Shown here: piece by piece, positions 4,531 to 38,022 of the stretch | How the letters are laid out: every line of letters begins with the position of its first letter | Numbering within the stretch: the stretch's first letter is position 1 | NCBI GenBank assembly: GCA_034620365.1 | Contig: JAQGEQ010000298.1 | Location: forward strand, 1-64,000 | Length of the DNA: 64,000 nucleotides | Direction of reading: 5' to 3' | Source: Pegea sp. RAD2-039 | Lineage: Eukaryota; Chordata; Thaliacea; Salpida; Salpidae | Position numbers and translations under genes: made by a program | Notes under the pieces: model-generated | Seen by the model: the letters and a program-made list of their open reading frames with translations, nothing else | Databases searched by the model: none | Told to the model about the DNA's origin: nothing

Positions 4531-4986
4531 TAAAAAAGAGAAAGCAGAAGAGATTCTACCTCAAGGGCAAAAGAACAAACAATAAGCACTACTGGATCTA
4601 ATCAGGGATCAAGAAGTAAGCGAGAGCTTTCTCGCTGTGAAGAAGAGCAGGATGGAAGCAATCACAAATGGAGACGGGAGAGTTATGAGCGTTTTCCCAA
4701 AGATTAATAGTGAACTCCTTATAGATTGTTACAACTACAGCATAAAAAACAAACTGAAGCAAGATACAAACTTTGTAGCGCTAGAACTTCCTTCCTACAC
4801 TTTGTATTGTTTCATTTCGCTTGGTTCTTTTATTCAGTATGCAAATTTTTTGGTATAAGTTTTCCTTTCACCCGCAGTTACTTAGTTCGTCAGAGATACA
4901 AAATTACTTTTAACAAATTGCAGTATATGGAGAAGAAGAACTTTTTTCCGAGTTTATTTTTTGTAAAAACATTAAATGAAGTCTGA
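4531..4986 (+). other. Conserved unassigned segment, left copy
   Basis: This segment is well conserved with 56,817-57,280 on the opposite strand. It holds short open stretches (4,637-4,858; 4,726-4,986) but the longest frames differ between copies and neither has a recognisable domain. In the right copy a frame with alternating Ser/Arg/Lys and charged residues (for example SKRELSRCEEEQDGSIHKW) stays open, whereas in the left copy it is interrupted. It may be a decayed exon or a repeat end; no function is proposed. Confidence 0.35.
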
Positions 4987-5836: not shown

Positions 5837-8385
5837 TCAATTGTGACTTCTCAAATGTTTTTTTAAATGAGAAGGACGCATAAACCCTTTTTTACAAACA
5901 CTGCAGTTATGTGGGAAGTTTCTGGTGTGGATGTTGATCTCGTGTTGCTTCAGAGTAGATGACGTTGTAAATGATTTTGAGCAAATCTTACAATGAAACA
6001 ACTTCTCGCCTGTGTGGATTCGTTTGTGTCTTGTAAGATGACATGATTGCCCAAATGTCTTTCCACATTGATTACAAACAAAATCTTTTTGCTTCTGGTG
6101 AGTATTACGGATATGTTGTTGCTTGTAAGATTTCTGGCTAAACGATTTTTCGCAAAGCTCGCATTGATACGTCACCTTTAAGTGAACTGACTCATTATGT
6201 CGGTTAAGGTTAATTTTTAGTCCAAAGCTTTTTCCACACAAGCGACAAATAAATTTTTTTAATTTATTGTGGGTTACTTGGTGTTGTTTGAGATGGCTTC
6301 CATAATCCGTAGTATAGTCGCATAGATTGCAGCGATACTTTTTATTAGGCGAATGTTTTCTTTTAAGATGAACTTCAAATACTTTCTTATCAGCAAAAAT
6401 GTCTTCACAAAACTCGCAGTGATAAAGATCAGCTGCACAAATATTGTGTTATTACAAAAATTAATTTTATTCTAGTACTAGAAACATTAATAAGATATAT
6501 TTTTTTACAAATAAATGGAAAAGTTTAATTTACTTCTTTTGAGTAATTCAGGATTCCTTTTCAGATTCTTGATTTCTTTCTGAGGACTTTTAGCTGTAAA
6601 AAGTTACTTGTAGTTATTCATAAGATTGTCTTTATGACGAATAACATTAGTTAACTTTTTCGATTTTTTAATTAAAGTAATTCATAAATAATTTAATATT
6701 ATTTTACTAAATAAATATTTTCTAACTTTTATTTTCATCTTTCGTGGCATCTTCTAAATCTTCATTATCATTATCAAGAACATTTTCAAGCATTTCTTCA
6801 TTTTCACATGCAGTATCCTCATTGTCATCTCTATCACCATCACCAAGAGCGTTCTTCATTTGATCTTCATCTTCACAACCATCCAGAGTATTCTCAATGT
6901 GATCCTTATTTCCACCTTCAAAATTGCAATCATTAACGTCATTTAGGTCTTCATCCTCAAGAACATTTCCATCAAAATTTTCATAATCATTACTTTCAAC
7001 AACATCTTTAACTGAATCTTCATCAACAACATCATCATCCAGTTGTTCTTGGATGGCTTCAGGACATTCTGTAACAATAAGATTAATTAAAAAACCTCCA
7101 GTGCAATTTCTATTGGACATGTTAAGGGTTTTAATGCTATTCCTTATCAAAACAGGTCACTATTATTTAATAATAATATATTATCTATAATTTAAATGGG
7201 TTACTATTAGTCATAAATATTTTTTTTTGTGATTACTTATACCATTACAAACATTATAACTTTAGTTTAGAAGTTGTACTTAGAACAGTTTTACTTTCCA
7301 ACTTTCTTCTTTTAATCTCTGGTTGATTGAAACAACTTTCATATCCACCACAACCTTCACTAACAGATTTTGATCCTTTTAAAACAAATTTGTTGTTTAA
7401 ATTTAAATATTTTGTTGAATATAAACTTGTATCACAATTTCTTGGTCAGGCAAACATGTTAACAGTCATTAGATAATTAAAAGATCAAAATTATACAAAC
7501 CAGTTTAATAATAGATTTATCAAACACTTCAACAATATTACTTCAAAGGTTTTCTCAGTTCATTATATTAAACTTCCAATATTAAAATAACTTAGTTATA
7601 AAACCAAACACCAAAAACATAAACAAACAATAAAATCATATATTATAACATCATAAGATCATTTAAAATTAAAATTTACCTTCTTCAACCAATATTCTAG
7701 ACGAATTAAAATCTTCTTTTTGTTTAGGTTGATAGAAAACTTGAGTTTCTATTGGTTCTGTCTTAAAAAGCTAGGAGGCAAATAAGAATCCCAGTAAAAT
7801 TATACAATCTAGATTATTTATTTATAAAAGATTAAAAAGAAATTCATAAAAAAAATACTAAATCCATCTAACAAATTATTTTTTTCATGTAGAAACAACT
7901 AACATTTTGACAATAAATATATATAAACAAAAAAAGATACTTACAAAGGTTTCAGATGAAGATACAGTGTTTAGGTCTTCTCCTTGACTTGTAGAAGCAA
8001 CAGGTTCCTTAGATGGAATTTCAGAGAAGTTATTATCACCATTTGAAGCCAATTTCCTTAAACTATCTTCAATATTTTCAATTTCTTCTTCATAATATTT
8101 TATGATTTTACACTTTGCATATTGTATTTCTGAAGGACTCCAACTTATGTTATTCCGAAGCCTTTTCATGTTAAACCAACGCTGAATCGATTTATATGAA
8201 TAGCCAGAATTTTCAGAGAGTTTAATTAGTTGATCCTCTGATGGATAAGGGAAAGCACAAAATTGTTGTATAAATTCCAACTCAATAGTGGGAAGAATAA
8301 AATTATCTGCAGGAGTTTGATCCTCTACAGCATAATTATTCTCTTCTAACCACAAATCAGCAGTAATAACTTGATGAATTTCCAT
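5837..8385 (-). CDS. Homeodomain, acidic region, seven C2H2 fingers: left copy
   Basis: Six exons on the minus strand: 8,385-7,945, 7,770-7,680, 7,426-7,295, 7,068-6,727, 6,593-6,534 and 6,432-5,837. Lengths (441, 91, 132, 342, 60, 596) match the right-arm copy exactly. The ATG at 8,383-8,385 is chosen because the triplet at 8,394 is TTG. Exon 1 encodes an atypical homeodomain (about residues 25-80) with helix 3 SIQRWFNMKR; exon 3 ends in a basic IKRRKLE; exon 4 is strongly acidic; exon 6 has seven C2H2 fingers. It is a likely nuclear DNA-binding regulator. The oddity is the exon 3 acceptor, which reads AA at 7,428-7,427 where the right copy has AG. Using the next AG shifts the frame, but skipping the 132-nt exon keeps it. 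So this copy may make a shorter protein or be failing. Confidence 0.8.
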
Positions 8386-9852
8386 TATTATCAATTACTA
8401 AGTCTGTTTATAAAAGAAATATTAATAAGCTTAACTCAAGTTTAATTGAAAAAGAAGTTTTTCGATATAACTTATATAAACAATTCAAATTATATTTCAG
8501 TTTATTAATGTACATCTAGATATAAAAATGCATAAAAATATCTCTAAACAAACTTCAAAATAGAATAAATTATTTTAAAAACATGCTAAAAAAACATTGA
8601 AAATAAAATTCACTGGAATAAACATTTGTTGTAAAAAGCTAAAATACTTTTTATTAATAAACATCGTGTACGACTGTTTTTAAATGATTAAGAAAGCAAC
8701 TAAAATAATCTGGTAACTTAACCTTTAAAATTTAAGAAATAAAGTTTGGTGATATTATGTAAGATTTAAGCAAATTATTTCAGTAGAATAAGAATAAAAT
8801 AAACTCTTAAATCTTTAGAAATTCAAAATAAATCTTAAAAGGAAATTTTTTATGAAATAAATTGAGAACTATACCAACAGTAAATAACTTAGCCAATTTT
8901 TCTTCTCTCTTCAATTTAACTTACATTCCTCTGTCTAAGTAGTAAAAGTTTTATTTAAGTGACGCCATTTATTGGTATATAAACTGCACTTGGAGTTTAA
9001 TAAACTTGTTCTATCAATTTAATCAGATATAAAATAACTAATATCTACAAAAAAAAAACAATTTTTAGACGTTTGGATTCAATAACACCGAAGAAATCGG
9101 TGACAAATTGAAAATAAAACAATTATACATTTGAATAAATTAAAACTATTCAAATAGAGAGCTCTATTAAACTACAACAGTTGCAAATAACCAAAGTTAT
9201 AAAAGTGCTCAAGCCTAGCGTGGATAAGATATTAACATATGAGGTATAATATTCTACTGTTATTCGTTTAAAATATACTACAAACAACTCTGAATACACT
9301 ACCAGAGGCAACACCATGTTCTTGACATAATAATTAAGTGAAAAAAACATTATGAATAAATGATACATTTAAAGAAAGTAGAAAAATGATCAGATCTGTT
9401 CCTCTTATAGTCAAAAGTATCTACTATAAACTTGAATTTGCAAATATACATTTTTAACAACTTTATCATGCATCAATATTTACTTCTCAATAGCTTGTCA
9501 ACTTTCACTTCAACAACCTGTGGAACAATTATTCAATAAAAACCCTAAAAATTTTCACCAAAACTAACTAAGCAAAAGTATAAAGAAACTAGTAACAAGA
9601 ATGGATTCTCACAGAAGCTGAGGATATGAAACACATACCCAAGTATCAGTGGAATCTAATATCAGTTGTAAAAGTTTTACAGGTGATGAAAAAGACACAG
9701 AAATTGAAGTGACCTGGTAATGACAAAATGTCAAACTTCTGGCTGCAATACCTACTGCTCATAATGTAACTGCAAACCAACTGAACAAATAAGTTTTATG
9801 ATAGATAGATGATAATATCTTATCATTGATGATATCTAAGCATAAACCACAA
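8386..9852. other. Upstream of the left homeodomain/C2H2 gene, no gene seen
   Basis: AT-rich, mirrored at about 51,946-53,417 in the right arm. Small ORFs such as 9,150-9,368 are not preserved as coding in the mirror copy. As the shared 5' flank of the two homeodomain/C2H2 genes it is where their promoters should lie, but no motif stands out. Confidence 0.5.
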
Positions 9853-10127
9853 GTGATAGTTGCATTGGCATCTTTCTTTAAGAAGTCTATAATACCTGAA
9901 ACAGTTTAAGATACCTGAAACTGTGAAAAGACACCAAAAACAGTAAAAAAAACCAGAAACAGTACAAAGATTAAAATCATTTTAATAATGTTTAATCTTT
10001 AACTTTAATTATCTTCATTACTGCCAGTTTTGTGAGAAATATTTGGAAATGAAAGAGTTTTGAAGTTTCATATAAAATGGAAATACAAAAATAATAAGAA
10101 AATGTTTTCCTGCAATATATGCAGTTA
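9853..10127 (+). pseudogene. C2H2 zinc-finger exon relic (repeat family copy 2)
   Basis: Related to 817-1,097 and to the mirror copy at 51,665-51,945. Near 10,020 the plus strand reads CQFCEKYLEMKEF followed by a stop: the two cysteines of a finger remain but the frame is lost by a small deletion. Homology to the right arm ends near 10,127. Confidence 0.55.
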
Positions 10128-13490: not shown

Positions 13491-13564
13491 GTGAGAACAT
13501 ATTTCGATTTGATTAAAACTATCTCAACTTGATAACATTTGTATTTATAATTCAACAAAGTATT

Positions 13565-16500
13565 TTAGTGGTTGAAGGTGCTAAAGACTCATTTGCTTCT
13601 TGCACCTTGACTTGTAAAAACTCCTCTGCTACCAACACCAAGTCAATAATAACTTGTCTTAGAAACAAATCTTGTGTTTGGTGGTTGAAGGTGCTGAAGA
13701 CTCACTTGCTTCTTGCACCTTGACTTATAAAAACTCCTCAACCAACAACATCAAGTCAATAATAACTTCTCTTATAAACAAATCTTGTGCTTGATGGTTG
13801 AAGGTGCTGAAGACTCACTTGCTTCTTGCACCTTGATTTGTAAAAACTCCTCCACTACCAACACCAAGTCAATAACAACTTGTCTTACAAACAAATCTTG
13901 TGTTTGGTGGTTGAAGGTGCTGAAGACTCACCTGCTTCTAGTACCTTGACTTTTAAAAACTCCTCGACCGACAACACCAAGTCAATAATAACTTCTCTTA
14001 CAAACAAATCTTGTGTTTGGTGGTTGAAGGTGCTGAAGACTCACTTGTTTCTAGTACCTTGACTTATAAAAACTCCTCAACCAACAACATCAAGTCAATA
14101 ATAACTTCTCTTATAAACAAATCTTATGCTTGATGGTTGAAGGTGCTGAAGACTCACTTGCTTCTTGCACCTTGATTTGTAAAAACTCCTCGACCACCAC
14201 CACCAAGTCAATAATAACTTGTCTTACAAGCAATTCTTGTGTTTGGTGGTTGAAGGTGCTGAAGACTCACCTGCTTCTAGCACCTTGACTAATAAAAACT
14301 CCTCGGCCACCAACACCAAGTCAATAATAACTTGTCTTACAAACAAATCTTGTGCTTGATGGTTGAAGGTGCTGAAGACTCACTTGCTTCTTGCACCTTG
14401 ATTTGTAAAAACTCCTCGACCACCACCACCAAGTCAATAATAACTTGTCTTACAAGCAATTCTTGTGTTTGGTGGTTGACGGTGCTGAAGACTCACCTGC
14501 TTCTAGCACCTTGACTTATAAAAACTCCTCGACCACCAACACCAAGTCAATAATAACTTGTCTTACAAACAAATCTTGTGTTTGGTGGTTGAAGGTGCTG
14601 AAGACTCACCTGCTTCTAGTACCTTGACTTATAAAAACTCCTCAACCAACAACATCAAGTCAATAATAACTTCTCTTATAAACAAATCTTATGCTTGATG
14701 GTTGAAGGTGCTGAAGACTCACTTGCTTCTTGCACCTTGATTTGTAAAAACTCCTCCATTACCAACACCAAGTCAATAACAACTTGTCTTACAAACAAAT
14801 CTTGTGTTTGGTGGTTGAAGGTGCTGAAGACTCACCTGCTACTAGCACCTTGACTTATAAAAACTCCTCGACCACCACCACCAAGTCAATAATAACTTGT
14901 CTTACAAACAAATCTTGTGTTTGGTGGTTGAAGGTGCTGAAGACTCACCTGCTTCTAGCACCTTGACTTATAAAAACTCCTCGGCCGCTAACACCAAGTC
15001 AATAATAACTTCTCTTACAAACAAATCTTGTATTTGGTGGTTGAAGTTGCTGAAAACTCACTTGCTTCTAGCACCTTGACTTGTAAAAACTCCTCGGCTA
15101 CCAACACCAAGTCAATAATAAATTGTCTTACAAACAAATCTTGTATTTGGTGGTTGAAGTTGCTGAAAACTCACTTGCTTCTAGCACCTTGACTTGTAAA
15201 AACTCCTCGGCTACCAACACCAAGTCAATAATAACTTGTCTTAGAAACAAATCTTGTGTTTGGTGGTTGAAGGTGCTGAAGACTCACTTGCTTCTTGCAC
15301 CTTGACTTATAAAAACTCCTCAACCAACAACATCAAGTCAATAATAACTTCTCTTATAAACAAATCTTGTGCTTGATGGTTGAAGGTGCTGAAGACTCAC
15401 TTGCTTCTTGCACCTTGATTTGTAAAAACTCCTCCACTACCAACACCAAGTCAATAACAACTTGTCTTACAAACAAATCTTGTGTTTGGTGGTTGAAGGT
15501 GCTGAAGACTCACCTGCTTCTAGTACCTTGACTTTTAAAAACTCCTCGACCGACAACACCAAGTCAATAATAACTTCTCTTACAAACAAATCTTGTGCTT
15601 GATGGTTGAAGGTGCTGAAGACTCACTTGCTTCTAGTACCTTGACTTATAAAAACTCCTCAACCAACAACATCAAGTCAATAATAACTTCTCTTATAAAC
15701 AAATCTTATGCTTGATGGTTGAAGGTGCTGAAGACTCACTTGCTTCTTGCACCTTGATTTGTAAAAACTCCTCGACCGACAACACCAAGTCAATAATAAC
15801 TTCTCTTACAAACAAATCTTGTGCTTGATGGTTGAAGGTGCTGAAGACTCACCTGCTTCTAGCACCTTGACTAATAAAAACTCCTCGGCCACCAACACCA
15901 AGTCAATAATAACTTGTCTTACAAACAAATCTTGTGCTTGATGGTTGAAGGTGCTGAAGACTCACTTGCTTCTTGCACCTTGATTTGTAAAAACTCCTCG
16001 ACCACCACCACCAAGTCAATAATAACTTGTCTTACAAGCAATTCTTGTGTTTGGTGGTTGACGGTGCTGAAGACTCACCTGCTTCTAGCACCTTGACTTA
16101 TAAAAACTCCTCGACCACCAACACCAAGTCAATAATAACTTGTCTTACAAACAAATCTTGTGTTTGGTGGTTGAAGGTGCTGAAGACTCACCTGCTTCTA
16201 GTACCTTGACTTATAAAAACTCCTCAACCAACAACATCAAGTCAATAATAACTTCTCTTATAAACAAATCTTATGCTTGATGGTTGAAGGTGCTGAAGAC
16301 TCACCTGCTTCTAGCACCTTGACTTATAAAAACTCCTCGGCCGCTAACACCAAGTCAATAATAACTTCTCTTACAAACAAATCTTGTATTTGGTGGTTGA
16401 AGTTGCTGAAAACTCACTTGCTTCTAGCACCTTGACTTGTAAAAACTCCTCGGCTACCAACACCAAGTCAATAATAAATTGTCTTACAAACAAATCTTGT

Positions 16501-16635
16501 ATTTGGTGGTTGAAGTTGCTGAAAACTCACTTGCTTCTAGCACCTTGACTTGTAAAAACTCCTCGACCACCAACACCAAGTCAATAATAAATTGTCTTAT
16601 AAACAAATCTTGTGTTTAGTGGTTGAAGCTGCTTT
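13565..16635 (+). repeat. 113-bp satellite array, left, about 27 units
   Basis: Tandem units of 113 bp, each containing GGTTGAAGGTGCTGAAGACT and a CACCTTGACTT... AAGTCAATAATAACTT core. Two unit types can be told apart by TGTTTGGTGG versus TGCTTGATGG. A higher-order duplication is visible: variants at 13,529-13,723, 14,332-14,514 and 14,445-14,627 recur 1,582 bases later (15,123-15,305, 15,914-16,096, 16,027-16,209), which is 14 units. The array fills the gap between the RME-8 and ODAD3 fragments. The repeated 60-codon open frames are a by-product of the period, not genes. Confidence 0.95.
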
Positions 16636-18680: not shown

Positions 18681-20270
18681 TTCAGAATGTAATTAGAAAT
18701 ATGTAAAAAGTCTAGTAAGAGTAAATAAAGTATTGATAAATGATCAGAAGTAAATTAATTTCAATAAATTTTCAAAATCGTTTTTTCACGACTAATTAAA
18801 CTATAAATCACTAAATATTTCTAATTTAAACTTATCTTTCAATTTTCAATCTGAAAACAAATAAAACTGAAAAATGTATATTTTTTAGTTTTTTAAAAGT
18901 TATTTTCTTAAACAAATTCAGCTGTTAAATTTACAATCCGAACAAAAGTATTCAAAGTTCACTTGAAAGAAATTTATTTAATTATTACAATTTAATTCAT
19001 ATTCATTTATTCAATTCATTTAATTCCAAAATCATATTTAAATAAATGACAAAAGCTAAAAGATCTCTTTAATATAAAAACAAACAAATTTATTTTCTTT
19101 AAGCTGAGTTACATCAACTACAGAAAAACTTGTCTTTACAAACCAACTTTGCTCCTAGAGACTTTGATAGAATGGTTGACGCTTGTTTATAAAACGTAGT
19201 CTTAGATGTTTAATAATATAAACTATCACAATTTTATCAAACTATTGCTGTTTGTATTTACTTACTAGTGTTTATAATTTTGAAAATCGAAAAGTTATTA
19301 ATAAAATTATCAGCAACCGTTATCAAACAAACTTGTATCTACTACTCATATAGATGCTTCACTGTGCGTGACCGGTTTATGCTAATTTATTTTTACTAAA
19401 AGTATTTCAAGAGAGCCTAGAGACTGATTATGAAAAGTTTGAGAACCAGCGATCTTAAGATTAGAGATAAGCTCTTCAACTAACTGTTTGTAAATACATT
19501 ATTAGTTTTGTCTTTGCTAATTATTATTATGGAAAAAATGTAGCTGATCACGTTAGGCTATTTAATCAAATACTTCTACAAAAGTGTTTTTGAGTTTTGG
19601 TTAATGAGTTGTTTAAAATGATTTTATGATAATGAAAGATAAAAGAAATATTCAATTAATCAAGATAACTAATTCTTTTAATGTTAATAACGAGCTAACT
19701 TGAATTATTTTGACAACGATATTAGCATCTATGACGTAATAACCAATATTTCATAACTCACTTGTAAAAAAGTTTTTCTTTTAATTGTCTACTTTATTGA
19801 GGTTTGTACATCGTTCTTTTAAAACTTAATTAAATTAAAATAAATAAGTAAATCTTTCAAAGTTCTTAATTATATTGGAGAATTATGAAATATTTTTGAT
19901 TAAATTATTAATTTAAAAAGTTACTGAATAACTTAGTATCGATTTATACTTTATATCAATTTTAAAGTGGAAATTATGCAATTATTCTATTTAATTTTTA
20001 ATGTTTAGTTTACATATTTTGAGATCGCAAATAAAGCTGTTAGTAATCTCAAATTGTTTTTTTGAATACTTTCAAATATTATTAAGCAGTTTTAGTTTGT
20101 TCTTATTTTAAAATATGCAAAAATACTAGGATATAATTAAAAGCTTTTATCGCTAAAACTAACTAAGTTAATTTTAAAACTTAATAATTAAAAAGTAGTT
20201 GTCAAAAGCAATTTTATGTCTTGCTATTTAAAAATATCTTTTCATCAGAGAGAAATATTTATTTTTCGAG
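18681..20270. other. Upstream region of the left many-exon gene, no gene seen
   Basis: AT-rich, mirrored at 38,023-39,246. It presumably contains the promoter of the downstream gene; no TATA box or other motif can be singled out in such AT-rich sequence. Confidence 0.5.
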
Positions 20271-23200
20271 ATGGATAAGCAACTAGACTTACTTAGTAAG
20301 TATTTTTCAATCTAACATTTTATTTTTAAACCTTGTAATAAAGTTATACAAGTAACATTAACACTTTGTAGTTCATGAGTAAATGTTATTCTTATGATTT
20401 CAGATCATACTACGGAAGTTCACTTATATGGAGTGAATCACCTACATTTAAACGAAATCTTTTTTCAACTGGTAAGTAAATAAAATTGTTAACTTTATTA
20501 ATATCACTTTTAAATAACTATTGTATAGTGTATAACAAGCTTGCTTTGTTTAAATTAACTAATTTCTTATGTTTCAGCCAAAATTAGTATTGTTTGAAAT
20601 ATTATTGTTTGGTAAGTTTACTTTTGTTTTAAAAAGTTATATTTTAAATTAAATGTCTTAACGCAACCGATCAACAGTTTTTAAAACTACATTTTTATTT
20701 AAAGGTAATTTTGAACAAACGAAATTTAAAGGTTAGAGAATTAATTAATTGATTGTAACCTCATATATTAACATATGAAAATTTTAGGTACAATTCAACA
20801 AAATGTTTTTAACCTGCAACAGTGGAAATGTTTGTTGGTAAATTGATTTATTTCAGTTATTATGTTAAAAACACCTAATAATTTATCAAATATTTACTTT
20901 TTCAAGTTTATTTAATTATATTTGATTCAATAATCCTTTGAATAAATTCTTTTTTAATTTTAAGATTCTGTTAAAAAGTAAAAATAACTTATGATTTTAT
21001 TTTAGTTGGAATACATGAAGCACCTAAGTAAGTGTAACAGACAAAATGTTTGTTCTAAAAATAATAAATTTAATCTGATTTTTCTGAAACTTGTTACTTT
21101 ATGGTCATAGTTTTCATTATGTTTTCAATTAAAACGTAGAATTTTAAGTCTTAATACGAAAATAAATCTATTTTCAGCTGTTAACAAAGTTGTTGTTGGA
21201 GATATTGTTGAAAATGCTATAGACTTCAATACAGTGAGTTGATTAAACATTTTCCTTATTGATAACACTTGCTTGTCTTTTGTAGTAGTTTTAAGACTGT
21301 TTGGTAAATAGAATTTTAGCATTTTATCAGAAAGTATTTGATTCATCCTTAATTATACTTAATGCAAATTAATAAATGATAACAGTTGACTGAATAAGTT
21401 ATTACAGTTTTTGTTTAACTCTATTTCTTATAGGAAACCTCATCAATTGTTGAAGTTATTGAAGAAGAAAACGAAATGGTAAATTTTAACCGTTGATATA
21501 AAATATGTATATTATAAAACTATTTGTTCATTTTTTTAACTATATAAAAGATTGATTATTCATCTTTAATAAAATAATAATGGTCATATTGAAATTAAAT
21601 CAGTTTAAAATCAAATATTTGTTGAGCTTTCAATACTTTTACAACAAAATAATTTAAGTAGAAGTAAAATATGTAAACTGGGAAATATTTTCCAGTTGAC
21701 TGATTTGGAAGATGGTGGTGATGATTTGAAACCTTCCAGCGTGAGTTTTTGTTTCTTCTAGCTACAGTCTGTCCTTGATTCTAATTTAAAAGTCTTCGTC
21801 CGTTTGTTAAATTGATTGTATTAATGTTTACGACAAAGTTTTACTTTTTTTGCTGCTTCACTTGCATTGGTATAATTTGAGTATCATTCGCTTTTATTCT
21901 ATAAAATACTAATTATTCGAGCTTTTCATAGACTAAACAATTATAACAATTATACAGAGACACAAAATATAAAACTCAACAAGATTGTAATCAAATTAAT
22001 TATTTTACAAAACAAAATTGTAATTTATTATTTTGATAAATGATAAAACTTGAAAATACTTTTAATAAACCACTAACTTATTCCAAAAAAGTAGTAAAAA
22101 ATATTTGAGTAGTTTAAAAATGGTTGTCAATACATATTTTCTTTAGTTATTAGAGTTACTCAAGGAATGTGACAGTGACAGCTCTTCAATCTCCTCATGG
22201 GTTAGTTTCTGTGATTAATTTATCATCACCCATTTTGTTTATTAAATCTTATATGTACTTTTTGTTTCTAAGAACTTTTTTTCAAGTTATGATAACTGAA
22301 TTAAATACTTGGTTTTGTATAAAAATATCAAAATTTTTTTGCTACTTTCAAAAAACAAAACATAAAGTTGTATTTTTTAGGAAACCGATTGCTCAGAAAC
22401 CAACAATAATTTGGTGAATCCAGTTTTGGTAAGCATTAATTTGATCCTAAACTTAATTTAATTTGTTTTTAATGTAAATTTTCAATGTTACAACATACTG
22501 AAAATATTTATTTATGATTTTAGATTGAAAACAATGAAATGAAAAGCAAAGTCACTTCGATAATTTCAGAATCTAATACAGTTAGTGAAAAATTACCATT
22601 TCTATTTGTTTCTTTGATCTAAAAACTAAAATATTGTAGATTTTTATGTTAAAAATGTTATTGAAATAATTATTACAGATCTAAATACAAGTTACTGATT
22701 TAATTTTTCATTAAGTTTATTGATAATATAGAAGATAATCTTATAGAAGCTGATTTGATTGCTTTCAGACAAAGAGTAAACCATTTTAGTTTCTATTCAA
22801 GAACTTACTAGATTGTCATTATCATACTACAGATTATTTAATATTTCATTCATTAATAGTTTAGAAATAAAAAATTTATGATTTAACTTCAATTCATTTT
22901 TAATTTAATCAAACTAATTTTCATTTTTATTAACATTTTTGATATAAAAGAAAATAAAAATTTAATAGCTTGTACCTTTGTTGCTATTTCATTTGCTGTT
23001 TTTACTATATTAAAATACAAACAGACTAATTTTTCTTTCATTGTTTTCAGGAACAAAGCAAAGGTGATAATAGCAATATTCAAAATGTTGAAAGCAAACC
23101 AGTTAGTTTTGATTTAATGTTGAGATTACAATGGTTTTACTTCACAAGTTTTTTTTTGATTTAAAGATAAATTCTCTGTAATATTACTGAAAAAAAATTA

Positions 23201-25897
23201 AAGTAATAAATTTATTATAACTACTTTAGACAACTTTTAAAAATTACTTCTTCAATATAAAATTAATATTATTTTTGCTCTCAACTTTATTTAAATTTCA
23301 ATCATTTTTTTCAGTATCAAAATATCCCATATGAAGAACCTAAGAATATAAATGTTGAAAGCAAACCGGTAAGTTTGGTTATTTGGTTTTTGTTTATCAG
23401 ATACAAATGTGTAACTTTTTAGAAATTATTGATAACAAGTTAATGTTTATATAGAAATGAGTCTTCTCAATTATAAATTTAAGTTGTTCAATGCAGGAAA
23501 CGGCTTTCGAGATTTTCAAGAGAAATTTGTTGAGAATAAGAGCTGTAAGTAAAAACTTATACGTGATTTTGAATATAACGTAAAAAATTTAAAACAATTA
23601 ATTTCTATCTCTCCATAAACTTTTAAAATCTCTGAATTTCATTTTAATGAATTTAAAATCTTTTTTTATAGTCATGAATTACGTTAAATAAAGTAAAATT
23701 AACTATTTTACATAGAGAAAAGTAAATCTTATAACTTGAAAAATGATAAACTTGAAAATACCTTATTCAAACCACTAACTTATTACAGAAAAGTAGTAAA
23801 GTAAATTTGAACAATTTTCATATAGTTTTTAACAAATTCTTTCTTTAGGAACAAAAAGCTAAAAAGGAAAGTCAAAGTGACAGGAGTTCAATCTCCTCAT
23901 TGGTTAGTTTCTGTGATTAATTTATCATCAGTCATTTTGTTTATAAATTCTGATGTATAGTTTTTGTTAGTCATAACTTTGGTTCAAGTTATATAAATTT
24001 AATTAAATAATTGTTGTTTTCATGAAACGATCAAATATTTTTTTCTCTTTGCTAATATATAAGAAAAATAACTCTAAAAAAATATGTGTAAGTTAACACT
24101 AATACCTGATGTTAAATAGAACATAAAAATGTAAAGCAATTAATTTCTATCTCCCAATAAAATTTATTATTTCTGAATTTTGTTTTAATAATTTTAAAAT
24201 CATTTTTATAGTCATGAATTAAGTTAAATAAAATCAAATTAACTACTTTACAAAAACAAAATTAAATCTTATAACTTGAAAAATGATAAAACATAAAAAT
24301 ACTTTATTGAAACAACTAACTTATTACAGAAAATTAGTAAAATAAATTTGAATAATTTTCATAGAGTTTTTAACAAATATTTTCTTTAGGAATCAAATGC
24401 TAGCAAGAAAAGTCAAAGTGACATCTGGTCAATCTCCTCATTGGTTAGTTTCTGTGATTAATTTATTATCAGTCATTTTGTTTATTAATTCTTAAAAAGG
24501 GTTTTTTTTGAGTTATAAATATATTTCAGGTTAAATAAATTTAATTAGATGATAGCTGTTTCCTTGAAAACATCAAATAAGTTGTTTTTGTTACTTTCAA
24601 ATAGTAAAAGATAAACTTGTCTTTTTTAGAAAGCCGATAGCGAAGAAACCAGCAATAATTTGGTGAATCCAGTTTTGGTAAATAATAATTTGATCTTAAA
24701 ACTAATTTCTTTTGTTTTAAATATAAATTTGCCTTATTAAAACTTACTTCGAATATTTGTTTTGATTTTAGATTGAAAACGATGAAATAGAAAGCAAAGT
24801 CACTTCGATAATTTCAGAACCTAATACAGTTAGTGAAAATGATTGTTTCTATTTGTTGTTCTATTTAAAAATATATTTTCCTGTTTTTATAAACAGGTTT
24901 AATATAAAAAACTTATTAATGAAAATTTAGTTGTTTGTACTATATTAAAAGTAAAGTTGATTAATTAATTCTTTATTTTTTTCAGAAACAAAGCATAGTT
25001 GATAATAGCAATATTCAAAATGTTGAAAGCAAACCAGTTAGTTGTGATTTAATGTTGATATTATAATGGTTTTATTTGAAAAGTTATTTTCTGATTTAAA
25101 TAATAATTTTGTTCAATATTTCTGTGAAAATATTTAACTAATAAAACTATTGTCACTACCTTAGACAAATTTTTTAAACTACAACTTGAATATAGAATTG
25201 ATATTATTATTTCAGTCAACTTCAATTAAACCTTAATTTTTTTATTCAGGATCAAAATATCCCAGATGAAGAACCTAAGAATATAAATGTCGAAAGCAGA
25301 CGCGTAAGTTTGGTTTCATTTATCAGTTACATATATCATGGTTTATAATTATTATTAACAAGTTAATGCTTATAGTGAAAATGATTTTTCGTAAATTAAA
25401 TTGTAAAATTATGTTGTTTAATGCAGAAAAACAAGGTTGAAACTGGGAAAAAAGATGCCATCAAAAAATTATCTGTAAGTTAATACCTGATGCTAACTAT
25501 AAATTAAATAATATTGAAGCAATTAATTTCTATTTAACAAAATTTTAATTTCTCTGAATTTTATTTTATTAAAATAAGAATCTTTAGTTGTATAAAATGA
25601 ATTAAGTAAAATATTAAATTTAAAAAACAATTTGCAGAAGAAGAAGAGATTTAGAAATCTTTTGATTCGAGTTTTTACTTGTGGATGCGTAAGAAAATGT
25701 AAACTGAAAGTTTATCTTTTATTTGATTTAATTATTTTATTTCTCAGTAATTTCGAAAACCTTACTTTTTTGATATATTTTAGCAATTTATAAAACACTT
25801 TAAAACATTCTATAATCTATTTGCTTTTATCATTTAATTTTAATTGAAAATAAAACTTTTGTTTATTTATTTAATTTTTCATTTTCAGAAGCTGTAG
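20271..25897 (+). CDS. Many-exon gene with repeated exon cassettes, left copy
   Basis: Twenty-four exons can be read with GT...AG boundaries. Exons 1-7 (20,271-20,295; 20,404-20,471; 20,578-20,611; 20,705-20,731; 20,788-20,837; 21,006-21,027; 21,178-21,233) start MDKQLDLL. Exons 8-23 are all phase 0 and multiples of three: 21,434-21,478; 21,696-21,740; 22,147-22,200; 22,381-22,428; 22,524-22,580; 23,051-23,101; 23,315-23,368; 23,497-23,544; 23,849-23,902; 24,390-24,443; 24,630-24,677; 24,772-24,828; 24,986-25,036; 25,250-25,303; 25,427-25,474; 25,638-25,688. The last exon (25,889-25,897) encodes only Lys-Leu-stop. Exons 10-15 and 17-22 are two copies of a six-exon cassette with sizes 54-48-57-51-54-48 and shared peptides (SSISS, NNLVNPVL, SKVTSIISE, DNSNIQNVESKP, EPKNINVES). 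AATAAA lies at 25,950. No signal peptide or known domain was recognised; the product is acidic, then basic at the end. Function unknown. Confidence 0.8.
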
Positions 25898-27077
25898 TTG
25901 AATGATGGAATTGAATTAGAAATATGTTTTGTATATCTGCTGAAAAACAAATAAACAACTTTTATGGATTTTGAGAAGTTTTGACGAGTTAACTGCTGAC
26001 GTAAATGTGACAATATTCATTCTTGTACCGTTTACATTCGACTATAAACACTATTCAAATCTTAAACATTATTTGTCGAAGCGTATCAGAATAAACAAAA
26101 ATCTTTCTTAGACTTTTCTTGGTTTTTGTTTTTGGTTTCAATAGTATACAAAAATTTCATCAGATATTTTGTAATATAACTTTTCCTCAGATTCTAGATA
26201 ACTCTGACAGCTCTCAATGTATTTATAGATGTTACATAATTGACGAAAAATTAATTAATAATTAATGAGTGCAATCAATGTTCTCATCTTTTCAAACTAA
26301 CATAATCTTGTTTATAAAACTTGTAAAGGTTTTCTTTAAAGAATTGACTTTTCAGCCAATGACACAATCAGGTCGCTGGATTCATTTATTTTGGATTTCT
26401 AAATAAATACAAACTCTACTTAATATTACTAATGTATCAAAAAACTATGATCAGATAAACTTCTAGAATTTGATTCAAGTATTTGAAGAAAAGTCCAGCT
26501 TTTATGTCTATCCCTGTCAGAGTACTTACCTTCTTGTCTAAGAGAAACTTGTATTAATATTTATGTATTACTAAAAAACAAGTTTTATGAATTTAGAATT
26601 TGTATCTAAATTTGAAAAAATGTCTATAAGAATGTAATTATTATATAATACAATATGAATACATTTATCATACTTATATTTCATATAATCCCTAGCCATG
26701 TGATCCATATGAAGGTAGCTAATATAGTATTTATAATTGTATTATTATTAATATAATTTTATTTATATAAATGCAGTTATTTAGTTGCTTTGAAAGCGTG
26801 TCAAAGATGCTTAATTCGCTCAAGTGATATCGCCAAACTTTTGCTTAAAGACATATTAATATTTATATGAACGTAGCTAAGAACTCTAAACTTTATTCTA
26901 TTTGAATAAGGTAAGTGTCTATCAGGAGTAATCTCCTTTTTTTTCAATCAAACATAAATTTAATGCTAGTAATTGATAATATAGAAACTATTTATCAAAA
27001 AATAATGAAGTGAATAAAAGCGATTTTTGATTCGGTGGTAATTGAGATATGTACGTGAAACTTAGCTTTTATTATTT
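25898..27077. other. 3' flank and inner end of the left arm
   Basis: Palindrome homology continues to about 26,660 (mirrored at 29,655-30,408) and then stops. No gene seen. The remaining sequence to 27,077 is unique spacer. Confidence 0.6.
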
Positions 27078-27290
27078 ATCAATTATTTAATCTATATAAC
27101 CAATGATAGAAACTTTGTAACTTTTTCATTATGAAAGTAAATGTTTATTCAATAAAATTTTAAAAATTTTTATTGAACTTAATTTCAATTTAATAAAATT
27201 TTATATTTTGAGCAGCTTAACGTTTGAAAATGTTTGCTTAATATAGAAATTACTCGAAAAAGTCAAATTAAAGTTAAAAAAAAAACAGTA
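27078..27290 (+). repeat. Left terminal inverted repeat within the spacer
   Basis: About 210 bases that recur inverted at 29,293-29,511, including the landmark GAGCAGCTTAACGTTTGAAA on the plus strand here and its reverse complement near 29,355-29,380. The pair encloses about 2 kb and is separate from the main palindrome arms. No target-site duplication was seen. Confidence 0.8.
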
Positions 27291-27633
27291 GAAACATGCG
27301 ATGCATGTAGAGTATTTTTCTACAGCTGGTGGAATTACAGAGAAACATTTGTTTGTGAAAGTTCAGGGGTATGTCCAATAAAATCATTCAATAGAAGCAT
27401 ATGCTGCTCATACTACCGAATAAAAAAGTGCCCTAGTAATGGAATGAATGAGGGCTAGCAGAAAAAACAATTATTGCTTCCGAAAAGATAAATCGAAAGG
27501 GAGAAGCAGGAAGAAAGTCGATCCCAAACATGTAAGTTGAATTTATTTTTGTTAAAATCAAACTGATACTTTATTTTTCATGTTCAGTACTTGCTAGAAG
27601 AAATGAACCGTTTGTTAAGCGGTGAGTTTCCCA
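27234..27633 (+). pseudogene. Nuclear-receptor DNA-binding domain remnant
   Basis: The frame reads TCDACRVFFYSWW, then FVCESSGVC, then ICCSYYRIKKC and NGMNEG. This is the second half of the first C4 zinc finger (P-box region) and the whole second finger of a nuclear receptor, whose family consensus is C-x2-C-x-x-FF ... C-x5-C ... C-x2-C-R-x2-KC-x3-GM. After NEG there is a TAG at 27,456-27,458, then QKKQLLLPK and a one-base shift into INRKGEAGRK, so the hinge is broken. A further exon-like piece lies at about 27,588-27,622. The first pair of cysteines is absent. The frame starts inside the 27,078-27,290 inverted repeat. It is a ligand-regulated transcription factor family, here decayed. Confidence 0.7.
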
Positions 27634-29525: not shown

Positions 29526-29597
29526 TCCTCGTTAGTATAGTGGTGAGTATCCCCGCCTGTCACGCGGGAGACCGGGGTTCGATTCCCCGACGGGGAG
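29526..29597 (+). tRNA. tRNA-Asp (GTC)
   Basis: A 72-base cloverleaf with anticodon GTC in the loop CTGTCAC, a T-loop GGTTCGATTCC (B box), a D-arm TAGTATAGTGGT (A box) and acceptor stem TCCTCGT/ACGGGGA. It matches the standard animal nuclear tRNA-Asp pattern and has no intron. A short interrupted T-run follows. It sits in the palindrome spacer just outside the inner inverted repeat, with no second copy in either arm. Confidence 0.97.
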
Positions 29598-30408
29598 TTT
29601 ATTTTGGTACCTTACAATTTATTCATTTGTCAATTTTTTAGTAAAATTAAAAACATTGTTTAACTTTCTATAATAAATACATTTTTATAGACATTTTTAC
29701 AAATTTAGATAAAAATTCTAAATTCATAAAACTTGTTTTTTAGTAATACATAAATATTAATACAAGTTCCTCGTAGACAAGAAGGTAAGTACTCTGACAG
29801 GGATAGACATAAAAGCTGGACTTTTCTTCAAATACTTGAATCAAATACTAGAAGTTTATCTGATCGTAGTTTTTTGATACATTAGTAATATTAAGTAGAG
29901 TTTGTATTTATTTAGATATCAAAAATAAATGAATCCAGCGACCTGATTGTGTCATTGGCTGAAAAGTCAATTCTTTAAAGAAAACCTTTACAAGTTTTAT
30001 AAACAAGTTCATGTTAGATTGAAAAGATGAGAACATTGACTGCACTCATTAATTATTAACTAATTTTTCGTTAATTATGTAACATCTATAAATACTTTGA
30101 GAGCTGTCAGAGTTATCTAGAATCTGTGGAAAAGTTATATTACAAAATTGCTGATGAAATTTTTGTATACTTTTGAAACCAAAAACAAAAACCAAGAAAA
30201 GTCTAAGAAAGATTTTTGTTTATTCTGATACGCTTCGACAAATAATGTTTAAGATTTGAATAGTGTTTATAATCAAATGTAAACGGTACAAGAATGACTA
30301 TTATTACATTTACGTCAGCAGTTAACTCGTCAAAACTTCTCAAAATAAATAAAATTTGTTTATCAGCAGATGTAGAAAACATATTTCCAATTCAGTTCCA
30401 TCATTCGA
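29598..30408. other. Inner end of the right arm
   Basis: Mirror of 25,898-26,660: the 3' flank of the right many-exon gene. No gene seen. Arm homology begins near 29,655. Confidence 0.6.
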
Positions 30409-33400
30409 CTACAGCTTCTAAAAATTATAAAAAAAAATAAATGAACAAAAGTTTTTTTTTTCAATTAAAATTAAATGATAAAAGCAAATAGATTATAGAA
30501 TGTTTTTTATATTGCTAAATTGTATCACAAAAGTTAGGTTTTCAAATAAATAAGAAATAAAATAATTAAATCAAATAAAAGATAAACTTTCAGTTTACAT
30601 TTTCTTACACATCCACAAGTAAAAACTCGAATCAAAAGGTTTCTAAATCTCTTCTTCTTCTGCAAATTGTTTTTTAAATTTAATACTTTATTTAATTCAT
30701 GTTATAGAACTAAAGATTCCTAATTTAATAAAATAAAATTCAGAGAAAATTAAAATTTTGTTAAATAGAAATTAATTGCTTCAATATTCTTTAATTTATA
30801 TTTAGCATCATGTATTAGTCTTAACTTACAGATAATTTTTTGATGGCATCTTTCTTCCCAGTTTCAACCTTGTTTTTCTGCATTGAACAACTTAATTTTA
30901 CAATTTAATTCAAGATAATCATTTTCACTATAAACACCAACTTATTAATAATAATTATAAAAAATCATATATGTAACTGATAAACGAAATCAAACTTACC
31001 GGTTTGTTTTGGACATTTATATTCTTAGGTTCTTCATCTGGGATATTTTGATCCTGAATAAAATAATTAAGGTTCAAATGAAGTTGACTGAAAAAATAAT
31101 ATTAATTCTATATTCAAGTTGTAGTTTAAAAAATTTGTCTAAGGTAGTGACAATAATTTTATTAGTGTAATGTTTTCACAGAAATATTGAATAGAATTAT
31201 TATTTAAATCAGAAAAAAACTTTTCAAATAAAACCATTATAATATCAACATTAAATCACAACTAACTGGTTTGCTTTCAACATTTTGAATATTGCTATTA
31301 TCAACTATGCTTTGTTTCTGAAAAAGATAAAGAACTTATTAATCAACTTTGATTTAATATAGTACAAATAACTAAATTTTCATTAATAATTTTTTTTATA
31401 ATAAACCTGTTTATAAAAACAGGAAAATATATTTTTAAAAAGAACAACAAATAGAAACAATCATTTTCACTAACTGTATCAGGTTCTGAAATTATCAAAG
31501 TGACTTTGCTTTTTATTTCATCGTTTTCAATCTAAAATCATAAATAAATATTCGAAGTAAGTTTTAAGAGGAAAAATTTATATTTAAAACAAAATAAATT
31601 AGGTTTAAGATCAAATCATTATTTACCAAAACTGGATTCACCAAATTATTGCTGGTTTCTCCGCAATCGGTTTTCTACAAAATACAAGTTTATCTTTTAT
31701 TATTTAAAAATAGCAAAAATTAAAAAATTGTTTATTTTTCTCCTGAAGATAACTATTATTTAATTAAATTTATATATCTTGAAATAAAATTATGACTAAC
31801 AAAGACTATATATAATAATTAATAAACAAAATGACTGATGATAAATTAATCACAGAAACTAACCAATGAGGATATTGAACACTTGTCACTGTCACATTTG
31901 TTTATAGCGTTTGATTTCTAAAGAAAATATTTGTTAAAAACTGTAAGAAAACTGTTCAAATTTATTTTACTACTATTATGAAAATCGTTCGTAGTTTTAA
32001 ACAGGTGTTTTCAAGTTTAATTTTCGTTTTAATGTTATACGATTTAATTTTGTTTTTGTAAGGTAGTTAATTTGATTATATTTAACTTAATTTATGACTA
32101 AAAGAATGATTTAAACTCCATTAAGACTAAAATCAGAGAAATTAATCGTTTATAGAGAGGTAGAAATTAATTAAAATAAATTTTGTACGTTATATTTAAC
32201 ATAATGTAATAGTGTTAATTTACAGATAACTTTTTCGAGTTATCTTTTTTTAAGTTTCAAATACGTTTTCTTGTATTGAACAACTTAAATTTACAATTTA
32301 TCTTGAGAAGCATCAAATTTTATTATAAACAATAACTTGTCAATAATAATTATAAAGAGTCATTTATGTAACTGACAAAGAAAAGTTGAATAACCAAACT
32401 TACCGGTTTGCTTTCAATAATAATACTCTTAGGTTTTTCATCTGGGATATTTTGATCCTGAAAAAAATGATCAACATTTAAATGAAATTGAGAGAAAAAA
32501 TAAGATTGATTTTATGTTGAAGTCATAATTTATAAAAGTTGTCTAATGTAGTGACAATAATTTTATTAGTTTGATTTCTTTACAAGAAATTTACAGAGAT
32601 TTAATATTTAAATCAGAAAAAACTTGTAAAGTAAAACTATTATAATATCAACACTAAATCACAACTAACTGGTTTGCTTTCAACATTTTGAATATTGTTA
32701 TTATCATCTATACCATGTTTCTGAAAAAAATAAAATAATAATTAATCAGTTATAATTTTAATATAGTAAAAACAGCAAATAAATCTGCAACAGAGATACA
32801 AACAAATAATTATTACGTTATGTTTTCGTTTATGTCAAAACTTTAAAGGAAAATAAAAATTAGTTTGATTAATTTAACAACAAACTGAAGCTAAATCAAA
32901 AAGTTTAAAATCAATAAATTATTTCTAAACTTTTAATTGAATGAAATATTAAATATTCTATTGTATGATAATGACAATCTAGTAAGTTTTTGAAACGAAA
33001 CTAAAATGGTTTTACTCATTGTCTGAAAGCTATTAAACCAGTTTCTATAAAATTATCTTCTATATTATAAATAAATTTAATAAAAAATTACATCAGTAAC
33101 TTGTATTTATATCCTTAATAGCTAACTCTAAATACATTTTATAATTAAAATTTACAATAATTTTGGTTTTGGTCTAAAGAACAAATAAAAATAATCAATT
33201 TTTCACTAACTGTATCCGGTTCTGAAATTATCGAAGTGACTTTGCTTTTCATTTTATCGTTTTCAATCTAAAATCATAAATAAATATTCGAAGTAAGTTT
33301 TATTAAGGCAATTTTATATTTAAAATAAAAGAAATTAGGTTTAGGATCAACTCAGTACTTACCAAAACTGGATTCACCAAATTATTGCTGGTTTCATCGC

Positions 33401-36400
33401 CATAGGCTTTCTAAAAAAGACAAGTTTATCTTTTATTATTTGAAAGTAACAAAAACAACTTATTTGATGTTTTCATGGAAACAACTATTATCTAATTAAA
33501 TCTATTTAACCTGAAATATAGTTATAACTAAAAAAAACCCTTTTTAAGAATTAATAAACAAAATGACTGATAATAAATTAATCACAGAAACTAACCAATG
33601 AGGAGATTGACCAGATGTCACTTTGACTTTTCTTGCTAGCATTTGATTCCTAAAGAAAATATTTGTTAAAAACTATATGAAAATTATTCAAATTTATTTT
33701 ACTAATTTTCTGTAATAAGTTAGTTGTTTCATTAAAGTATTTTTATGTTTTATCATTTTTCAAGTTATAAGATTTAATTTTGTTTTTGTAAAATAGTTAA
33801 TTTTATTTTATTTAACTTAATTCATGACTAAAAAAATGATTTTAAATTCATTAAAACAAAATTCAGAGGTAATAAATTTTATTGAGAGCTAGAAAATAAT
33901 TGCTTTACATTTTTATGTTCTATTTAACATCAGATATTAGTGTTAACTTACACATATTTTTTTAGAGTTATTTTTCTTATAAATTAGCAAAAAGAAAAAA
34001 ATATTTGATCAATTCATGAAAACAACAATTATTTAATCTAATTTATATAACTTGAACCAAAGTTGTGACTAACAAAAACTATACATCAGAATTTATAAAC
34101 AAAATGACTGATGATAAATTAATCACAGAAACTAACCAATGAGGAGATTGAACTCCTGTCACTTTGACTTTCCTTTTTAGCTTTTTGTTCCTAAAGAAAG
34201 AATTTGTTAAAAACTATATGAAAATTGTTCAAATTTACTTTACTACTTTTCTGTAATAAGTTAATGGTTTGAATAAGGTATTTTCAAGTTTATCATTTTT
34301 CAAGTTATAAGATTTAATTTTCTCTATGTAAAATAGTTAATTTTACTTTATTTAACGTAATTCATGACTATAAAAAAGAATTTAAATTCATTAAAATGAA
34401 ATTCAGAGATTTTAAAAGTTTATGGAGAGATAGAAATTAATTGCTTTAAATTTTTTACGTTATATTCAAAATCACGTATAAGTTTTTACTTACAGCTCTT
34501 ATTCTCAACAAATTTCTCTTGAAAATCTCGAAAGCTGTTTCCTGCATTGAACAACTTAAATCTATAATTGAGAAGACTCATTTTTATATAAACATTAACT
34601 TGTTATCAATAATTTCTCAAAAGTTACAAATTTGTATCTGATAAACAAAAACCAAATAACCAAACTTACCGGTTTGCTTTCAACCATTATATTCTTAGGT
34701 TCTTCATATGGGGTATTTTGATCCTGAAAAAAATGATTGAAATTTAAATAAAGTTGAGAGCAAAAATAAGATTAATTTTATTTTGAAGAAGTAATTTTTA
34801 AACGATTTCTAAAGTAGTTATAACAAATTTATTACTTTAATTTTTTTTCAGTAATATTACAGAGAATTTATATTCAAATCAAAAAAAACTTGTGAAGTAA
34901 AACCATTGTAATATCAACATTAAATCAAAACTAACTGGTTTGCTTTCAATATTTTGAATATTGCTATTATCACCTATGCTTTGTTCCTGAAAACAATGAA
35001 ATAAAAATTAATCTGTTTGTATTTTAATATAGCACAGACAGCAAATAAAATAGAAACATAGGTACAAGCAATTAAATTTTTATTTTCTTTTATATCAAAA
35101 ATATTAATAATAATTAAAATTAGTTTGATTAAATTAAAAATGAATTGAAGTTAAATCATAAATTTTTTATTTCTAAACTATTAATGAATGAAATATTAAA
35201 TAATCTGTAGTATGATAATGACAATCTAGTAAGTTCTTGAAAAGAAGCTATAATGGTTTGCTCTTTGTATGAAAGCAATCAAATCAGTTTCTATAAGATT
35301 ATCTTCTATATTATCAATAAATTTACTCAAAAATTACATCAGTAACTTGTATTTAGATCTGTAATAATTATTTCAATAACTTGTTTAACATTAAAATTTA
35401 CAATATTTTAGTTTTTAGATCAAAGAAACAAAAAGAAATGGTAATTTTTCACTAACTGTATTAGGTTCTGAAATTATCGAAGTGACTTTGCTTTTTATTT
35501 CATTGTTTTCAATCTAAAATCATAAATAAATATTTTCAGTAAGTTTTAATAAGGCAAATTTCCATTTAAAGGAAAATAAATTAGGTTTACAATCAAATTA
35601 GTATTTACCAAAACTGGATTCACCAAATTATTGTTGGTTTCTGAGCAATCGGTTTCCTAGAAATTACAACTTTATGTTTTATCTTTTAAAAGTAGCAAAA
35701 AAATTTTGATATTTTTATACAAAACCAAGTATTTAATTCAGTTATCATAACTTGAAAAAAAGTTCTTAGAAACAAAAAGTACATATAAGATTTAATAAAC
35801 AAAATGGGTGATGATAAATTAATCACAGAAACTAACCCATGAGGAGATTGAAGAGCTGTCACTGTCACATTCCTTGAGTAACTCTAATAACTATAGAAAA
35901 TATGTATTGACAACCATTTTTAAACTACTCAAATATTTTTTACTACTTTTTTGGAATAAGTTAGTGGTTTATTAAAAGTATTTTCAAGTTTTATCATTTA
36001 TCAAAATAATAAATTACAATTTTGTTTTGTAAAATAATTAATTTGATTACAATCTTGTTGACTTTAAACTACAACCTTCAGTTTCAAATTTTTTTAGCAG
36101 CTTAAACATAACTTTAAAACTAATTGTTTAAACAATTTAAACTAATGCTAAAATCAGAAAACCACCTTAAATAAAAGACTGACATTGAACCTTAATTTAA
36201 AGTAAGCAAAACTTTAAATATGTTTTTCGTTAACACATCATAGCTAGAAAAAAAACTGATTTTTTGTATATTTTTGATGAAAGTTATTTGAGTTTATTTG
36301 AGTTTTATATTTTGTGTCTTTGTATAATTGTTATAAATGTTTGGTTTTTAAAAAACTGAAATTACTATTTTTATATAAAATAAAAGCGATTGATACTCAA

Positions 36401-38022
36401 ATTATACAAATGCAAGTGAAGCAGCAAAAGAAGTTAAATTTGTTTCACAAACATTAATACAATCTATTTAACAAACGGATGAAGAGTTTTTAATTAGAAT
36501 CAAAGACACCCTGAAATTAGAAGAAAAAGAAACTCACGCTGGAAGGTTTCAAATCATCACCACCATCTTCCAAATCAGTCAACTGAAAAATATTTCCCAG
36601 TTTACATATTTTACTTCTACTTAAATTATTTTGTTTTAAAAGTATTGAAAGTTCAACAAATATTTGATTTTAAGCTGATTTAATTTCAATATGACCATTA
36701 TTATTTTATTAAAGATGAATAATTAATCTTTTATATAGTTAAAAAAATGAACAAATAGTTTTATAATGTACATATTTTATATCAACGGTTAAAATTTACC
36801 ATTTCGTTTTCTTCTTCAATAACTTCAACAACTGATGAGGTTTCCTATAAGAAATAGAGTTAAACAAAAACTTTAATAACTTATTCAGTCAACTGTTATC
36901 ATTTATTAATTTGCATTAAGTATGAATAAGGATGAATCAAATACTTTCTGATAAAATGCTAAAATTCTATTTGCCAATCAGTCTTAAAACTACTACAAAA
37001 GACAAGCAAGTGCTATCAATAAGGAAAATGTTTATTTAACTCACTGTATTGAAGTCTATAGCATTTTCAACAATATCCCCAACAACAACTTTGTTAACAG
37101 CTGAAAATATTTTTAATTTTGTATTAAGACTTAAAATTCTACAATTTAATTGAAAAAATAAACAAAACTATGACCAAAAAGTAACAAGTTTCAGAAAAAT
37201 CAGATTAAATTTATTATTTTTAGAACAAACATTTTGTCTGTTACACTTACTTAGGTGCTTCATGTATTCCAACTAAAAATAAAATCATAAGTTATTTTTA
37301 CTTTTTAACAGAATCTTAAAATTAAAAAGAAATTATTCATAGGATTATTGAATTATTATTTATTGAATCAAATAAAATTAAATAAACTTGAAAAAGTAAA
37401 TATTTGATATAATATTACGTGTTTTTAACTTCATAACTGAAATAAATCATTTTACCAACAAACATTTCCACTGTTGCAGGTTAAAAACATTTTGTTGAAT
37501 TGTACCTAAAATTTTTATATGTTAATATATGAGGTTAGAATCAATTAATTAATTCTCTAACCTTTAAATTTCGTTTGTTCAAAATTACCTTTAAATAAAA
37601 ATGTAGTTTTAAAAACTTATTATCAGTTGCGTTAAGACATTTAATTTAAAATATAACTATTTAAAACAAAAGTAAACTTACCAAACAATGATATTTCAAA
37701 CAATACTAATTTTGGCTGAAATATAAAAAATTAGTTAATTTAAACAAAGCAAGCTTGTTATACACTATACAATAGTTATTTGAAAGTGGTATTAATAAAG
37801 TTAACAAGTTTATTTACTTACCAGTTGAAAATAGATTTCATTTAAATGTAGGTGATTCACTTCATATAAGTAAACTTCCATAGTATGATCTGAAATCATA
37901 AGAATAACATTTACTCATGAACTACAAAGTTTTAATGTTACTTGTATAACTTTATTACAAGGTTTAAAAAGAATATGTTAGATTGAAAAATACTTACTAA
38001 GTAAGTCTAGTTGCTTATCCAT
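30409..38022 (-). CDS. Many-exon gene with repeated exon cassettes, right copy
   Basis: Inverted paralogue of 20,271-25,897. The start is ATG at 38,020-38,022; exon 1 ends at 37,998; the last exon (30,417-30,409) encodes Lys-Leu-stop. Exons 1-17 follow the left copy. There are then three runs of the 54-48-57-51-54-48 cassette rather than two: the SSISS exons lie near 35,825-35,880, 34,140-34,190, 33,595-33,650 and 31,860-31,920, and the NNLVNPVL exons near 35,610-35,660, 33,362-33,410 and 31,630-31,680. About 30 exons in all. The 48-class exon of the middle cassette (near 32,225-32,285) is degraded and out of frame; since neighbours are phase 0, skipping it would leave the frame intact. All other cassette exons look open. 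No known domain; function unknown. Confidence 0.75.

Follow-up and report, generated by a model that had tools for sequence, protein, structure and literature searches.

In the sections of the literature drawn on here, the micro-exon genes (MEGs) of schistosomes have a coding region built mostly of small exons, mainly multiples of three in length, which can be omitted in frame; the genes evolve fast and occur as several families and copies (PMC4350168, PMC10526429). In the same sections all their products are described with a signal peptide, and the exons are mostly of 15 nt (6–81 nt) (PMC4350168, PMC10526429). The bicycle genes of aphids, in the corresponding sections of their account, have many small internal exons of one phase and encode orphan, fast-evolving proteins in many copies; almost all of these exons are phase 2, and CYC motifs and salivary expression are reported (PMC9168663).

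The locus analysed here lies at 20271–25897 of the window, the first 64 kb of contig C70 in an assembly of 105.7 Mb and 387 contigs. As far as those sections go, it resembles schistosome MEGs in its small symmetric in-frame exons (16/16 in an internal run), its fast evolution and its many copies, but differs from them in lacking a hydrophobic start, in exons mostly of 45–57 nt and in the repetition of a six-exon block. No sequence relation to the schistosome genes was found. With bicycle genes, again within what those sections describe, it shares small internal exons all of one phase and an orphan, fast-evolving, multicopy character; the 16 exons of its run are, however, all phase 0 rather than phase 2, and there is no signal-peptide-like start. 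By eye, no CYC motif pattern was noticed in the protein. Fibrillar collagen, elastin and the PEVK region of titin are repetitive proteins that also have long runs of small one-phase exons, and in collagen those of 45 and 54 nt are phase 0. Unlike these, the present gene has no Gly-X-Y or PEVK repeat, has a distinct peptide for each exon type and is multicopy. It represents a real, undescribed multicopy family that follows the design principle of micro-exon genes, yet is neither a micro-exon gene nor a bicycle gene by the features tested.

A chain of exons joined at GT-AG introns runs on the forward strand from an ATG at 20271 to a TAG at 25897, with 23 exons and an open frame of 360 aa. Inclusion of a 27-nt micro-exon (20705–20731) in the third intron of this chain gives 24 exons and 369 aa with the frame kept. 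Exon numbers used below (1–6, head; 7–22, phase-0 run) are those of the 23-exon chain, whilst the numbers of an earlier note on this DNA fit the 24-exon model. The six repeated exon types, of 54, 48, 57, 51, 54 and 48 nt, are named A to F. W1 and W2 denote the gene copies in the window, L009–L028 copies taken from other places, and P0001–P0003 three unnamed proteins discussed below. The features are as follows.

20271–25897, forward strand: gene copy W1 in full, 369 aa in 24 exons, or 360 aa in 23 if the micro-exon is omitted, from the GT-AG exon chain.
20271–20471, forward strand: exons 1 and 2 (25 + 68 nt), with which the constant head begins, from the exon chain; P0001–P0003 start alike.
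20578–20837, forward strand: two head exons, of 34 and 50 nt, flanking the micro-exon, from the exon chain.
20705–20731, forward strand: 27-nt micro-exon, peptide GNFEQTKFK (counterpart in P0001, GKFKKREVR), from splice sites in the copies.
21006–21233, forward strand: 22-nt and 56-nt exons, end of the constant head, from the exon chain; an indel in the poly-T intron was checked.
21434–21740, forward strand: two acidic 45-nt phase-0 exons with no counterpart in P0001 or P0002, from the exon chain.
22147–23544, forward strand: cassette block 1, exons A (54), B (48), C (57), D (51), E (54) and F (48), from the exon chain.
23849–23902, forward strand: additional 54-nt A exon lying between the two blocks, from the exon chain.
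24390–25474, forward strand: last cassette block A-B-C-D-E-F, in W1 a fused form of what are blocks 2 and 3 in the longer copies, from the exon chain and copy comparison.
25638–25897, forward strand: 51-nt exon (KKKRFRNLLIRVFTCGC) and last exon (KL, stop), together the constant basic tail, from the exon chain.
30409–38022, reverse strand: second gene copy W2, three cassette blocks, tail to tail with W1, from copy comparison.
32224–32269, reverse strand: block-2 F exon of W2, decayed, having lost its acceptor and being out of frame in length, from copy comparison.

The head exons form three pairs (25+68, 34+50 and 22+56 nt), each pair bounded between codons. Exons 7–22 measure 45, 45, 54, 48, 57, 51, 54, 48, 54, 54, 48, 57, 51, 54, 48 and 51 nt and are phase 0 in 16 cases out of 16, so that W1 reads head, 45, 45, ABCDEF, A, ABCDEF, tail. 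The exon chain thus bears out the earlier note, which had described sixteen consecutive internal phase-0 exons of 45–57 nt, the lengths 54-48-57-51-54-48 occurring twice with related peptides, and a six-exon block as the unit of repetition; one extra 54-nt exon stands between the two occurrences. The coding gene of small in-frame exons is real. That its exons are larger than micro-exons is true of most of them (45–57 nt), but not of the 27-nt exon, a true micro-exon. A plain one-in-three model gives a run of 15 such exons a probability of about 7e-8; the recurrence of exon lengths and splice sites in 22 copies is stronger evidence than this figure. The AG and GT of the micro-exon were found by script in 21/22 copies, the remaining one (L020) showing the acceptor and first bases, and P0001 carries a similar nine-residue stretch at the same position. 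A further exon candidate at 22716–22775 was dropped because in many of the matched copies it fails at the acceptor, at the donor or in frame.

The earlier note treated the locus as a single gene; instead it belongs to a multicopy family. A query with the 5' end found 23 places in the whole genome at 89–100% identity. The 3' end gave 43 matches, 27 of them at 82–100% identity; the other 16 (77–86%) lie on C102 and C247, and some are pieces of one place. Exon B alone has at least 40 genomic matches. Twenty-two copies were read: the 20 that were fetched (L009–L028), W1 and W2; a 5' match at 120914–121166 of C26 was left out. W1 and W2 lie within a large palindrome of 90–95% identity that also holds inverted homeobox-like and zinc-finger ORFs. 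Among the 3'-end matches are six convergent gene pairs, 4.4–5.3 kb apart, two on C70 and one each on C90, C159, C165 and C272. The region is an amplified compartment, since convergent pairs recur and the homeobox-like ORF has many matches on the same contigs.

The copies differ in exon content. Eleven long copies read ABCDEF-A-ABCDE(F dead)-ABCDEF. About one block is missing from W1 and likewise from L016, the breakpoints not being the same in the two, and L028 reads ABCDE-ABCDE-ABCDEF. Short copies on C171 and C31 have BCBDEF (n=5) or BDEF (n=2), and the C exon they miss is absent from the DNA, a genomic deletion. The blocks are alike in intron sequence as well, and were therefore duplicated as units of DNA. 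In all 11 full long copies the acceptor of the block-2 F exon is gone and the exon no longer fits the frame. As the exons on either side of it join in frame, losing it does no harm, and the frame of W2 is intact when the decayed exon is left out. L019 and L028 have lost the donor of the first 45-nt exon. Genomic gain and loss of whole in-frame exons and blocks is shown by these comparisons. At the level of the genome the proposed in-frame design principle holds, as copies missing whole exons or blocks still read through.

Exons and introns accumulate changes differently. In the 11 full long copies there are five distinct exon indels in 1403 columns, against 73 intron indels in 5971 columns, 63 of which are not multiples of three. 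One of the five lies in the dead F exon, two come from the frameshifted exon 3 of L013, and two are of 3 nt, in exon 6 and at the last exon. Variable columns make up 10.1% of exons and 15.9% of introns. The five short copies have a single exon indel (3 nt) in 711 columns compared with 34 intron indels in 3629 columns (30 not multiples of three), with 7.0% of exon and 10.5% of intron columns variable. No internal stop is present in 21/22 copies once exons that have lost a splice site are omitted (in 11 copies block-2 F, and in L019 and L028 the first of the two 45-nt exons) and one GC donor, needed by L028 at exon 1, is accepted; splice sites were sought up to 4 nt from projected ends, which favours finding them. 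The exception is L013, in which the loss of 1 nt shifts the frame in exon 3. L009 has lost the usual stop codon, and L017 is cut by the contig end.

Ten long copies give a dN/dS ratio of 0.57 and five short copies one of 0.27, with 0.44 between the groups, leaving out L013, L016, L017 and W1 (long) and L020 and L024 (short, except between groups). An estimate over 14 long copies, the frameshifted L013 among them, is 0.88. By part, on small counts, the ratio is 2.75 for exons 1–2, 0.29 for exons 3–4, 2.54 for exons 7–8, 1.03 for exons 1–8 together, 0.61, 0.80 and 0.40 for blocks 1–3, and 0.09 for the tail exon. The family is under purifying selection overall, yet fast-evolving, since dN/dS is below 1 overall and its parts vary widely. 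Exons 1–2, exons 7–8 and exons 1–8 together give no sign of purifying selection on these small counts, which neither demonstrate nor rule out positive selection in parts of the head.

Relatives are few. The 360-aa protein of L016, searched against about 5.8 billion proteins, has two matches, P0001 (369 aa, E 8e-76) and P0002 (350 aa, E 1.1e-67), each at 99% query coverage. A profile search returned the same two, and a profile led by the 200-aa short form returned both together with P0003 (127 aa), whose source label, merc, we take to denote a catalogue of marine eukaryote transcripts. The contigs of P0001 and P0002 (1230 and 1173 nt) extend 120 nt beyond the reading frame, whereas genome introns measure 100–500 nt; both are therefore intron-free, and the sequences are most simply, and probably, cDNA. 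P0001, read by exon type, has the order head-BCBCDE-ABCD-ABDEF-tail. P0002 is identical to it at 347/350 aligned residues, with the same head and tail, and lacks 19 residues (57 nt) that correspond to a C exon of P0001. The three substitutions fall within the 19 residues after the missing exon, and point to another gene copy or to the use of different D and E copies. In P0003 the head is joined directly to a B exon, the counterpart of the second one in P0001, and C follows. These proteins support exon use and variable exon content in a relative, and fit alternative splicing or different gene copies alike.

No named homologue emerged from the protein, profile, Pfam and PDB searches: no Pfam family passed the cut-off (best E 0.066), and no PDB chain matched at E up to 1. 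The suggestion in the earlier note of a possible undescribed family agrees with this outcome, in that no described family was found by any of these searches. Word searches of the open-licence literature returned no description of the gene family, a result that cannot show absence.

The W1 protein has an acidic middle (net −24) and a basic end (net +10 over the last 30 residues). No signal-peptide-like or hydrophobic N-terminal stretch was seen in the first 40 residues of 3/3 proteins, which agrees, by hydropathy only, with the signal peptide having been called absent. A structure model of P0001 with P0002 has a mean pLDDT of 28.1 and no fold; at this low confidence it hints at helices at 33–43, 47–56, 61–75 and 350–367. 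We infer that the protein is intracellular, its head helical, its modular middle disordered and its tail basic.

We propose, with a probability of roughly 70%, that this is a multicopy, fast-evolving and probably intracellular family in which in-frame exon diversity arises by recombination and probably by splicing. A constant head (exons 1–6 with the micro-exon) and a constant basic tail would enclose an acidic, probably disordered middle made of A–F exons. Because all the middle exons are bounded between codons, the protein stays open whatever their number or order. In the genome, as the gene copies show, whole exons or blocks are added or removed by recombination between exon-intron units that resemble each other, and splicing, here likely to be alternative, would probably include or skip individual exons. 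An exon that loses a splice site would drop out with the frame unharmed. The middle would then serve as a tunable series of short motifs for binding or phosphorylation.

An unlikely, though substantial, alternative is that each real copy gives one fixed transcript, with variety due to unequal recombination between copies and the phase-0 design a by-product of tandem exon duplication. The whole-exon and block differences between copies, which are present in the genome, and the C exon of the short copies, deleted rather than skipped, are what such an account would predict. P0001, P0002 and P0003 may themselves stem from different gene copies and not from splicing, and the three substitutions beside the exon missing from P0002 fit a different copy or allele. 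The near identity of P0001 and P0002, with the same ends and exactly one 57-nt exon between them, nevertheless speaks against this account, as does the retention in 11/11 full long copies of a dead F exon that must be skipped. It is far less probable that most copies are not working genes but decaying repeats or pseudogenes from the amplified region. Their position in palindromes and arrays with other amplified ORFs, the occurrence on C102 of exon B without most of its partners, the L013 frameshift and the universally dead block-2 F exon of the full long copies would suit decay. The depletion of indels and variable sites in exons would not, nor would open frames in 21 of 22 copies, dN/dS below 1 overall and the intron-free relatives in other sources. 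These data already largely refute decay for the long and short groups, to which that judgement applies, the C102/C247 group lying outside it.

The preferred reading, of recombination with probable splicing, has a wider implication that we put forward tentatively: an undescribed, amplified animal family may vary an intracellular protein in two ways, by exon-block recombination between palindrome-held copies and by splicing. Known genes of such design, in blood flukes and aphids, are thought to vary secreted effectors at the host interface. If the suggestion is true, the design of micro-exon genes extends beyond the secreted effectors of parasites or plants, and a family without a secretion signal would make many small one-phase exons a general means of varying proteins. 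With its many copies at known divergence, the family allows tests of the gain, loss and killing of exon blocks. A gene class of this kind tends to escape automatic annotation.

Several other features of the surroundings were noted. The palindrome arms are 4493–10127 with 51664–57309 and 19372–26648 with 29666–38915, centred near 28–31 kb. The homeobox-like ORF (Homeobox_KN, E 2.1e-5) lies at 7885–8394 (reverse strand) and 53409–53918 (forward strand) and has at least 40 genomic matches at 80–100%, many on contigs shared with the gene family. C2H2 zinc-finger ORFs occur in both arms, at 5837–6448 (reverse) and 55357–55968 (forward), adjoined by acidic 144-aa ORFs without a Pfam match. A 113-bp tandem repeat, in opposite orientation in the two arms, occupies 13564–16633 (27 copies) and 41142–42064 (8 copies). 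ORFs of TTQ/P-rich 15-bp repeats, mucin-like and following a cysteine-bearing start, are found at 48026–48532 and 59906–61810 (forward). On C102 (L029, L030), exon B is repeated in both orientations, in arrays without most other exon types. A broken non-LTR reverse transcriptase (RVT_1) is present at 2951–3787 (forward), and a partial nuclear-receptor-type zinc finger (zf-C4, E 5.8e-9) lies between W1 and W2 at about 27280–27460 (forward). The zinc finger suggests that the DNA is from an animal; none of the results marks that animal as a flatworm. Searches for COX1, for a bdelloid rotifer spliced-leader sequence and, with no positive control responding, for nematode cuticle collagen gave no match, and the 5S genes that were located were uninformative as to the organism. 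A tRNA-Asp (GTC) is located at 29526–29597 (forward), near the palindrome centre.
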